This document shows positions 11,542 through 14,979 of a stretch of DNA of 64,000 nt, in pieces (position 1 is the stretch's first letter; every line of letters begins with the position of its first letter). This stretch comes from Reyranella massiliensis 521 (GTDB lineage: Bacteria; Pseudomonadota; Alphaproteobacteria; Reyranellales; Reyranellaceae). The DNA lies in assembly GCF_000312425.1 (NCBI RefSeq), contig NZ_HE997181.1:3968320-4032319 (forward strand), in the 5' to 3' direction. Position numbers and translations under genes: made by a program. The notes under the pieces were generated by a model. That model was given only the letters and a program-made list of their open reading frames with translations, did not search any database and was not told the origin of the DNA.

Positions 11542-12753
11542 ATGTCCGCCCCTGCCGCCCCGACGGCCGCCCCGCCGCTCGCGATAGCCCTTCTGTCGGT
11601 CGCGGCCTTCGCCGCGGCGGCCAACATGCGCGTCATCGACCCTCTGCTGGTGCAACTATCCGCCAGTTTCGGCGTCACTGTAGGCGAAGCATCGATTGCC
11701 GCCACGGTCTTCCTTTTCGCCAATGGGGTATTCGTGCTGGTGCACGGCCCCTTCGGCGACCGTTACGGCAAGATGCCGGTGGTCGCCATAGCCTGCGTCG
11801 GCGCCGCGGCCTGCTGCCTGCTCGGGGCCATCTCGACCTCGCTGAATATGCTCACCCTGGCGCGTTTCCTGACAGGGGTAACGAGTTCCGCCATCATCCC
11901 GCTCGCCATCGCCTGGGTGGGCGACAATGTAAGCTACGAGAAACGCCAGGCCACCCTTGCCCGTTTCCTCACCGGCCAGACGCTCGGCCTGATGACGGGC
12001 GCGGCGCTGGGCGGCGCGATCGGCGACTGGCTGGGCTGGCGCTCGGTCTTCTGGGTATTGGCCGGCATCTACGTCATGGCGGGCGTCGCCCTGCTCGCGG
12101 TCATGCGCGCGCGACCCGAGATTGCCCGGCGAACCGAACGCAGCCAGGGATCGATGATCGGGCAGATGTTCAGCGTTCTGCGCCGGCCGTGGGCCCTCAC
12201 AGTCATCCTCGTCGTTGCCCTGGAAGGCGGCGTCTTCTGGGGAGCCTTCACCTTCGTCGGCGCCGACCTACACCAGCGCTTCGACATGGGCTTTGCCGCG
12301 ATCGGGCTTGCTGTCGCCGCCTTCGGCGCCGGCGGCTTCCTCTACGTCATGGTAGCCCACCATCTCGTGCGCATCCTGGGCGAGCGCGGGCTTTGTACTT
12401 GGGGTGGCGTGGGCCTCGGCATCGCCTTTGCCGGCATGGCGCTTGCGCCGGTCGCCGAGGTCGAATTCGCGGCCATCGTGCTCTCGGGCGTGTCGTTCTA
12501 CATGCTGCACAACACGCTACAGACCAACGGCACGCAGATGGCACCCGAAGCACGCGGCGCCGGCATGGCTCTCTTCGCGCTCTGCCTTTTCATCGGCCAG
12601 GCGATCGGCGTGCCCATCGCCGCCCCAATTGTCGATCGCTGGGGCGCACCGCCCATCTTCTGGGCGGCTGCCGTCTTCCTGCCGCTGCTGGCCTTCTGGT
12701 TCTCGGCGGCGATCACGCGGCGCAGTCAGCTCTCCGGCGACACCCGGAACTGA
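11542..12753 (+). CDS. MFS transporter (drug or metabolite efflux type)
   Basis: The protein is a 402-residue, 12-helix major facilitator. The loop 2-3 motif is visible as [11 protein letters not shown] after the second helix, and [18 protein letters not shown] in helix 5 resembles the motif C region of drug/proton antiporters. The start at 11542 is chosen for its normal N-terminal length; an upstream ATG at 11482 overlaps the divergent TerC gene. Its 3' end overlaps the convergent aldo/keto reductase by 28 bases. The substrate is unknown. Confidence 0.85.
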
Positions 12754-13706
12754 TAGGGCAGCTCGAGCGCCTTGCACTCCTCCGCCGTCAGCACGATATC
12801 GGTCGACTTCGCGGCCGAGGTGAGCTGGTCCAGTCCGGTCGCGCCGATGATCGGCGCCCCCATGTAGGGCTTGTGCAGCAGCCAAGCGAGCGCCACCTGA
12901 GCAGGCGTCACGTCCTTCGCCCTGGCGATCTTTTTCAAGCGCTTCACGACTTCCCAATCGCAGTCGCGATAAGTGCCAGCCTGCACCACCGTATCGTTTT
13001 TCGAGCGCTCGGTGCTGCCTCCGCCCTCCTTGTTGCGATTGCCGGCCAGGAAGCCGCGCGCCAGCGGCGAATAGGGAATGAGGCCGACGCCTTGCTCGTG
13101 GCAGAGCCGGTTCATCTCCCGTTCCTCCTCGCGCTGGATCAGATTGTAGAGATTCTGCATGGCAATCGGCCGTGCGTAGCCCTTCCAGTCGGCAATCATC
13201 ACCATCTGGGCAAACTTGTAGGCCGGCATGGTCGAACCGCCGATGTAACGGACCTTGCCCGAACGGACGATCTGGTCGAGCGAATACATGGTCTCCTCGA
13301 TCGGCGTATGCGGATCGAGCCGGTGGACCTGATAGACATCGATATAGTCGGTCTGCAGGCGCTTGAGTTGGGCATCGACCGACGCCATCAGATGCTTGCG
13401 GCCAGTGCCGACGTCGTTGGCGACGCCGCTCATGCGGATGCCGACCTTGGTCGAGAGCACGATCTCCTCGCGCTTCGTCATCTTCATGAGCGTCGCGCCC
13501 ATGATCTCCTCGGAGCGGCCGAAATTGTAGGTGTCCGCCGTATCGAAGAAGGTGATGCCGACATCGAGCGCCCGCTTGAAGTAGGCCGGCGCTTCGGTCT
13601 CGTCGAACTTGCCCCAGCCGCGGCGGCCCTTGGCTCCCCAGGAATTGCCGCCGAGGCAAATCCTGCTGACGATCAGGCCCGAGCGGCCGAGCGGTCCGTA
13701 CTTCAT
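12726..13706 (-). CDS. Aldo/keto reductase
   Basis: The 326-residue TIM-barrel oxidoreductase carries the AKR catalytic tetrad Asp55 and Tyr60 (FFDTADTYNFG), Lys87 and His128 (VYQVHRLDP). Sequence style (GGNSWG start, GRSEEIMG) fits the AKR subfamily of Tas, YghZ and potassium-channel beta-subunit relatives. NADPH binding is expected near the C-terminal ATGLDQLT stretch. GGGGG about eight bases before the ATG supports the start. It is divergent from the selenoprotein gene 47 bases away and overlaps the MFS gene tail to tail. Confidence 0.92.
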   Translation of the reverse strand: MKYGPLGRSGLIVSRICLGGNSWGAKGRRGWGKFDETEAPAYFKRALDVGITFFDTADTYNFGRSEEIMGATLMKMTKREEIVLSTKVGIRMSGVANDVGTGRKHLMASVDAQLKRLQTDYIDVYQVHRLDPHTPIEETMYSLDQIVRSGKVRYIGGSTMPAYKFAQMVMIADWKGYARPIAMQNLYNLIQREEEREMNRLCHEQGVGLIPYSPLARGFLAGNRNKEGGGSTERSKNDTVVQAGTYRDCDWEVVKRLKKIARAKDVTPAQVALAWLLHKPYMGAPIIGATGLDQLTSAAKSTDIVLTAEECKALELPYQFRVSPES

Positions 13707-13753
13707 CGAGAATCCCCCTTGCCGGCGAGAGCTTAAGCTCCCACCTTCGACGA

Positions 13754-13987
13754 ATGAAAGTGCTGATCGAATATTGCGGCGCTTGAGGCTACAAGCCGCA
13801 AGCCCTCCGTGTGAGGGAACGCCTCGAGAAGCTGGGCCTCGAAAAGCTGGGTAGCGCCGACATCGAGCTGCGCCCCGGCAAATCCGGCCAGTTCGACATC
13901 ACTGTCGATGGCGAACTGAAGTACACCCGTCACAGCACCGGCCGCTTTCCGACCGATGCCGAGATCGAAGACCTGCTTCCGGACTGA
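13754..13987 (+). CDS. SelT/SelW/SelH (Rdx) family selenoprotein, UGA at codon 11 read as selenocysteine
   Basis: Reading from the ATG at 13754, codon 11 is TGA (13784-13786) and the frame then stays open to a second TGA at 13985. With the first UGA as Sec (U), residues 7-15 read YCGAUGYKP, near identical to the redox site of animal SelW, with Cys8 and Sec11 as the CxxU pair. The rest fits the small thioredoxin-like Rdx fold, including GQFDITVDGELKY at 45-57 and RFPTDAEIEDLL at the end. The length of 77 residues is normal for SelW. A 5-bp hairpin 16 bases after the UGA matches a bacterial SECIS. No strong ribosome binding site is seen. The Sec insertion genes (selA, selB, selC, selD) must lie elsewhere. 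A translation beginning after the UGA would lose the redox site. Confidence 0.85.
13803..13817 (+). promoter_or_regulatory. Candidate bacterial SECIS hairpin
   Basis: CCCTC at 13803-13807 pairs perfectly with GAGGG at 13813-13817 around the five-base loop CGTGT. Two further pairs (13798-13799 with 13821-13822) can form below a small internal loop. The loop has G as its second base, at 13809, 23 bases past the UGA. Known bacterial SECIS elements sit directly after the UGA, with a G among the first two loop bases at about 16-37 bases distance. SelB recognition is inferred, not shown. Confidence 0.6.
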
Positions 13988-13995
13988 CTCCGGCG

Positions 13996-14979
13996 TCAGG
14001 CCAGTATCTCTTTGTTCACGACATTGGCCGTGTTCGGCCGGCCATCGAAGACGCTGAGGATATTTTCGACGGCAGTGACGGCCATGCGGTCGCTGGCTTC
14101 CTTGGTGACGCCGGCCATGTGCGGGCTGAAGATCACGTTCTCCAGGCTGAACAGCTTGTTGGCAGGATCCGGCGGCTCCTTGTCGAGCACGTCGAGACCG
14201 GCGCCGCGCAGCTTGCCAGTCGAAAGCGCCGCGTAGAGCGCATCCTCGTTCACGATGCCGCCGCGCGCGGTGTTCACCAGGAAGGCCTCGGGCTTCATGA
14301 GACCGAGCGTCTCCGTGTTGAACATGTTCACCGTCTCGGGCGCCTTCGGACAATGAACCGAGACGAAGTCGACCTTGGGAAGGACGGCCTTGAGGTCGGT
14401 CACCTTGGTGGCACCCGCCTTCTTGATCTCGGCTTCGGAAATGTTGGGATCGAGCACGAAGACGTCCATTTCGAAGGCCACGCACCGCTTCACCGTGCGC
14501 GAGCCGATACGGCCCATGCCGACCACCAGGATCGACTTGCCCGAAAGATCGGCCGGCAGGTCGGAGAGGCGCTGGCCCCAGCCCTTCTCGCGCACGAAGC
14601 GGTCGTATTTCTTCACCAGGCGCGCCGAGGCCAGAAGCATGTACATCGCATGCTCGGCCACCGAGACGGAGTTGGCGATGCCGGTGGTCATCAACGGGAT
14701 CTTGCGCTTGTTCAGTGCCGGAATCTCCACGGCGTCGAAACCTACGCCGAGACGAGCCACCACCATCATGCCCGGTGCAGCATCGAGCTCGGCCTGGCGG
14801 AAGGGAGTCGCGCCCAGGGTCACCGCGTTGGCATCCTTCAGCTTGGGATGCAGGCTCGGCACCGTATCGTCGGTCAGGATTTCGTAATCGACATCGTCTC
14901 GCGTCTTCAGCACGTCGATCCCGGCCTGCGGCATGCGGCCGACAATCAGCACTTTCTTGCGATTTTTGCCCGTAGTCAT
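13996..14979 (-). CDS. 2-hydroxyacid dehydrogenase, phosphoglycerate dehydrogenase-like
   Basis: The 327-residue NAD-dependent dehydrogenase has GMGRIG at 154-159 and catalytic Arg239 (NTARGG), Glu268 (DKEPP) and His287 (PHMAG). Its style (LGVGFDAVEIPALN, GGIVNEDAL) is that of 3-phosphoglycerate dehydrogenase-like proteins, but it lacks the C-terminal ACT regulatory domain of true SerA, so it more likely acts on another 2-hydroxy acid. AGGGGAAACG before the ATG supports the start. It is convergent with the selenoprotein gene (eight bases apart) and divergent from nothing; the Lrp regulator lies upstream on the same strand, 62 bases away. Confidence 0.9.
   Translation of the reverse strand: MTTGKNRKKVLIVGRMPQAGIDVLKTRDDVDYEILTDDTVPSLHPKLKDANAVTLGATPFRQAELDAAPGMMVVARLGVGFDAVEIPALNKRKIPLMTTGIANSVSVAEHAMYMLLASARLVKKYDRFVREKGWGQRLSDLPADLSGKSILVVGMGRIGSRTVKRCVAFEMDVFVLDPNISEAEIKKAGATKVTDLKAVLPKVDFVSVHCPKAPETVNMFNTETLGLMKPEAFLVNTARGGIVNEDALYAALSTGKLRGAGLDVLDKEPPDPANKLFSLENVIFSPHMAGVTKEASDRMAVTAVENILSVFDGRPNTANVVNKEILA

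Follow-up and report, generated by a model that had tools for sequence, protein, structure and literature searches.

Bacterial SelW-like selenoproteins with a CxxU motif have long been known. They formed the most abundant selenoprotein family of the Sargasso Sea set, with 48 genes (PMC1088965, in its accessible part), and are also listed in the accessible parts of PMC1794560, PMC9312934, PMC5029168 (counts 35 and 35) and PMC13188914, there as PF10262 with CxxU. Their function is described as unclear in the accessible text of PMC1088965, where a redox role is suggested from the CXXU motif and an interaction with glutathione is mentioned. For the Sec-decoding Alphaproteobacteria studied by 2006, fdhA was given as the sole selenoprotein (PMC1794560, in the part available). 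Formate dehydrogenase is nevertheless not the sole recorded selenoprotein of the class, because three known selenoprotein genes are listed for the alphaproteobacterium Afipia carboxidovorans (PMC12013277, in the part available). A search of the open literature found no paper naming a SelW from Reyranella, and the gene described here adds a member to the bacterial set.

The window that we analysed is a stretch of 64,000 nucleotides from Reyranella massiliensis 521, of a genus placed in the Alphaproteobacteria by NCBI; the host genome is one contig of 5.79 Mb. The selW-like gene sits between an aldo/keto reductase gene and a 2-hydroxyacid dehydrogenase gene, both on the minus strand, and the features of the locus are as follows.

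12726..13706, minus strand: aldo/keto reductase, divergent neighbour of selW (Pfam PF00248; context only).
13754..13987, plus strand: selW-like selenoprotein gene of the Rdx family, 77 residues, Sec at codon 11 (from frame translation, profile and fold matches, and genus conservation).
13784..13786, plus strand: TGA within the frame, predicted to be decoded as Sec and giving U in the CxxU motif (same codon in genus and class copies).
13803..13817, plus strand: SECIS-like hairpin CCCUC-CGUGU-GAGGG (from covariation, fixed position and near-frozen genus codons).
13823..13852, plus strand: 15-nt in-frame near-perfect tandem duplication, giving LEKLG twice (this copy alone; absent in the other 25 genus genes aligned).
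13996..14979, minus strand: D-isomer specific 2-hydroxyacid dehydrogenase, convergent neighbour of selW (Pfam PF02826, PF00389; context only).

A plain stop-to-stop reading of the gene ends at codon 11. The earlier note had instead claimed a frame running from ATG through TGA at codon 11 to a second TGA 66 codons on, with YCGAUGYKP at residues 7-15, and we found it exactly as described: the frame starts with ATG, meets TGA as its eleventh codon, continues for 66 sense codons and stops at a TGA, codon 78, with the nine-residue stretch read in the translation when TGA is taken as U, CGAU being residues 8-11. We are highly confident that 13754-13987 is a functional SelW-like selenoprotein gene, with SelB-dependent insertion of Sec at UGA 11 as the best explanation; the gene is real and easily missed, and its family is one already described among bacterial selenoproteins. 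As to its upstream bases, CCACCTT occurs within 25 nt of the ATG (here 13730-13753) in 19/26 genus copies and AGGAG or GGAGG in just 2/26, while AGGAG-like sequence was seen by eye before the start in many copies from other genera of the class.

To assign the product to a family, Cys was written in place of Sec in all models and searches. The 77 residues matched Pfam Rdx (PF10262) over residues 2-75 with E=5.6e-16 and a score of 59 bits (cut-off 22.6), which makes the frame more than a chance one, and this was the single Rdx match in the whole genome, with one TGA inside it. The product also scored above the cut-off of TIGR02174 (45.1 vs 34.2) and below that of the narrower NCBIfam NF041051 (69.9 vs 88). 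A sequence search with a 78-residue query, the stop codon entering as an extra residue, gave mouse SelW (2npb) at E 1.1e-6 and then other Rdx chains. In the AlphaFold2 model, built from nine aligned sequences (mean pLDDT 88.9), a predicted strand at residues 2-7 and helix at 14-31 place the CxxU after the first strand of the Rdx fold. All 23 PDB matches of this model at E 0.001 or better were chains of eight Rdx/SelW-type proteins, including mouse SelW and MIEN1, with thioredoxins coming weakly after them. Pfam Rdx, TIGR02174, the mouse SelW sequence match and the fold matches thus upheld the SelW/Rdx identity that had been claimed from the letters.

A selenoprotein gene implies genes for Sec incorporation, and the earlier note had proposed a search for them, with absence of selB and selC as a point against its reading. 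Indeed, all four genes are present: a profile search of the genome gave selB (455 bits, the single match above cut-off), selA (556) and selD (288), all above their cut-offs, and the gene for tRNA-Sec (selC), with anticodon TCA and above the Rfam cut-off, is separated from selB by a few hundred bases. A second site above the Rfam tRNA-Sec cut-off (L011, genome 2115356-2115441, 52.7 vs 47 bits) is perhaps another long-arm tRNA. Adjoining selB and selA are fdhE and formate dehydrogenase subunits, and the formate dehydrogenase-N alpha gene (TIGR01553, 1444 bits) has an in-frame TGA at codon 202 and an Rfam SECIS_3 barely above cut-off (65.4 vs 63). The selW gene raises the likely selenoproteome of the organism to at least two proteins. 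The machinery also bears on the idea that a near-cognate tRNA, for Trp or Cys, reads the UGA in place of Sec. Cys does stand at the place of the UGA in the ten stop-free class relatives that we read and in L095, a locus from Herpetosiphonaceae, but with the full Sec machinery in the genome, the UGA at the Sec position of SelW, and the selB association and the hairpin at SECIS spacing described below, we regard such readthrough as highly improbable.

Within the genus, an Rdx match was found in 43 of 61 genomes (the host included), each of the 43 with exactly one TGA, and in every one of the 26 genes that were read, the window's own among them, codon 11 was TGA and codon 8 encoded Cys. The site was TGA in 46 of 47 named-record loci and Cys in L095; these loci were found with patterns having C for U, which possibly left out the window's own record, and several are on the same contigs as loci of the genus search. 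Records of Reyranella soli and Enhydrobacter aerosaccus ATCC 27094 are among those with the gene. The UGA is thus kept at the same place in relatives, and other Rdx proteins carry Cys there, the two outcomes for which the earlier note had suggested looking. After the TGA, dN/dS had a median of 0.25 over 325 genus pairs (highest single pair 1.23) and was 0.15-0.51 for the window's copy against its 25 relatives. The median, together with the TGA at one codon in 26/26 genes and alone in 43/43 matches, the covarying hairpin and the tracking of TGA carriers by selB, argues against a pseudogene, in which a nonsense mutation would have disabled an Rdx gene and left a 10-residue peptide as the sole product. 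Such a pseudogene would agree with the plain reading that stops at codon 11, and copies that look broken do exist, namely a TAA in the Rdx frame of the class relative G397 and L098, a genus-like copy from a groundwater MAG that has the TGA and ends early; for the Reyranella gene, we consider it very improbable. L098 was the one case of a degraded downstream frame, which had been named in advance as evidence against a selenoprotein, and the genus genomes without the gene show an empty slot. The LEKLG-LEKLG duplication lies after the hairpin, and another genus-like copy, L066, has a different five-residue insert a few residues beyond the position of the duplication.

The gene is dispensable, as 18 of the 61 genus genomes have no Rdx match. 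The flanking dehydrogenase is present in 16 of these, with the aldo/keto reductase beside it in 14 (fetched loci), and in these 14 testable genomes of the 18 a tblastn search with E up to 1 found no SelW frame between the flanking genes, whose matches lie 64-102 bases apart vs 289 in the window. In one of them, L143, a stretch like the beginning of selW (GTGAAAGTG) seems, by eye, to persist, and the bases upstream of it are similar too; this would suggest that selW was lost by deletion. Also by eye, the slot in L133-L137, L139, L142 and L144-L146 has a GC-rich inverted repeat of the GCGGCACCGGTCG...CGACCGATGCCGC type, perhaps a terminator. Presence of selW does not track selB within the genus (selB in 41/43 genomes with Rdx vs 17/18 without), as would be expected if formate dehydrogenase keeps selB; the class comparison alone is informative. 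The 17 selB-keeping genomes without the gene, and the five-codon duplication found in this copy alone, could also be taken to mean that formate dehydrogenase alone maintains the Sec machinery and that the selW copy here has fallen out of use. Against this, frame and hairpin are intact, the dN/dS of the copy is 0.15-0.51 over all 25 comparisons, and no decaying frame was found in the genomes without the gene, and we think disuse very unlikely.

In the class sample, Rdx was found in 46 of 385 genomes, with one TGA in 28, no stop in 17 and a TAA in one. Two of the 28 TGA carriers are in the genus, and the remaining 26, all of which were read (L022 from G072 among them), have CxxU in every case, while the ten stop-free genes read of the 17 are all of a longer type with CxxC. 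A selB match was present in 24/26 non-genus TGA carriers vs 1/17 stop-free carriers (Fisher p 9e-9, with related genomes counted as independent). Part of this association may be shared descent, because of that counting and because the stop-free Rdx genes are of the longer type and not Cys orthologues. Carriers without a selB match are G040 and G046 in the genus (2/43) and G072 and G410 outside it (2/26); G040 (60%) and G072 (77%) are incomplete, while G046 (96%) and G410 (95%) are not, but both of the latter are in hundreds of contigs. Two further genomes of the class were noted: G365 has a stop-free Rdx gene and a full-length selB match, and in G397 the TAA stands just ahead of the CxxC (L125; a broken gene or a sequencing error), with a partial selB match, below cut-off, at a contig end. 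Overall, TGA-bearing Rdx genes were found in Reyranella's own family and in twelve family groups of the class (f13, f36, f55, f58, f67, f68, f81, f94, f96, f103, f129 and f149).

Downstream of the UGA, 16 nt precede a hairpin with a 5-bp stem, and 21 nt separate the UGA from its 5-nt loop. The bSECIS model, as given in the accessible part of PMC13188914, has a loop of 3-9 nt with G in the first two positions, a stem of 4-16 bp, 16-37 nt from UGA to loop and an MFE of -7.5 kcal/mol or lower, and the selW hairpin, with G at loop position 2, fits its geometry. On energy, an identical 15-nt hairpin alone (in L101) gave -6.2 kcal/mol, short of -7.5, and a 44-nt segment with a further hairpin inside it gave -14.1 kcal/mol. 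Single-sequence folding showed no significant hairpin signal (z -0.40, -0.35 and -1.00), and no Rfam SECIS was found in the selW gene at E up to 5, and the case for the hairpin therefore rests on covariation. The hairpin is at the same place in 27/27 copies listed from the first locus set. Among 56 distinct hairpin sequences (25 from the class, L022, three outside loci and the rest genus-type copies), all five pairs form in 52 and one mispair occurs in the other four; of the class sequences, 21/25 are fully paired, and G is at loop position 2 in 56/56. The covariation alignment held 39 of the 56: L022 and all class and outside sequences were included together with 10 of the genus-type copies, and the 17 omitted ones share the commonest stem. 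In it we observed two-sided changes at 5/5 pairs, in 17 cells, and 97.9% of cells paired, as against 37-58% in slid controls with the partner moved by 1-3 columns; none of 500 shuffles reached the observed value on any of five measures. Stem variants in the class are CGCUC/GAGCG, CUCUC/GAGAG, CCCGC/GCGGG and CUCGC/GCGAG, and outside it UUGAA/UUCAA (a Neomarinimicrobiota copy) and CCGCC/GGCGG (an unclassified bacterial MAG) stand at the same place. The Arg21 codon is AGG in 26/26 genus genes, as the stem pairing needs. Synonymous change at codons 14-21 was also low (mean 0.098 vs 0.249 elsewhere, p 0.01), but this window was picked after viewing the codon table and another eight-codon window, columns 44-51, was nearly as low (0.102), so that synonymous constraint here is suggestive only.

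From these data we infer the following course of events in the cell. The ribosome would meet the UGA at codon 11, where SelB, sitting on the hairpin that follows, would hand over Sec-tRNA-Sec. SelA would make this charged tRNA, using selenophosphate supplied by SelD. Translation would then continue past the UGA to the real stop with Sec in the protein itself. The predicted product is a small thioredoxin-like protein of about 8 kDa with the C8-x-x-U11 pair after the first strand. A role in thiol redox chemistry is likely, because the CxxU is in a thioredoxin-like fold, and in such a redox cycle C8 and U11 would probably form a reversible selenenylsulfide.

Taken over the class, the data make it fairly likely that SelW is a widespread second alphaproteobacterial selenoprotein beside formate dehydrogenase, that its covarying SECIS is compact (5 bp, with CGUG[CU] as the usual loop) and differs from that of formate dehydrogenase, both being read by the same single SelB, and that position and pairing persist in copies from a Planctomycetota, a Neomarinimicrobiota and an unclassified bacterial MAG. 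We rate this reading slightly lower than we otherwise might because of the three genes listed for Afipia carboxidovorans (PMC12013277, in the part available). The covarying SECIS set, drawn from the twelve further family groups in the class sample, could help to find such short genes. The finding opens no new kind of system.

The locus shares with the described bacterial SelW-like selenoproteins the Rdx domain, the UGA-coded U in CxxU, a hairpin within the coding sequence downstream of the UGA and a Sec-decoding host (accessible parts of PMC1088965, PMC1794560 and PMC13188914), and differs in that the present host is an alphaproteobacterium, a class credited with fdhA alone in 2006 (available text of PMC1794560). 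With the formate dehydrogenase SECIS of the same genome (SECIS_3), the selW element has in common a hairpin right after the Sec UGA and presumably the same SelB, but the SECIS_3 stem is longer and of other sequence, and the selW element has no Rfam SECIS match. The longer CxxC Rdx proteins of bacteria, such as Agrobacterium Atu0228 (2fa8) and Streptomyces SAV_2001 (3dex), have the same fold (TM-score 0.72-0.84 by query length) and Cys where the Reyranella SelW has Sec; in the ten class relatives of this type that were read, the C-terminal tail is longer, and selB is absent in 16/17 of the hosts. Lastly, animal SelW shares the GA(C/U)GYKP stretch and the fold, the mouse structure 2npb having C at the Sec place, whereas the fold-match identity of 2npb to the Reyranella product is 34% and the eukaryotic SECIS is in the 3' UTR (PMC13188914, in its accessible part) and not in the coding region as here.
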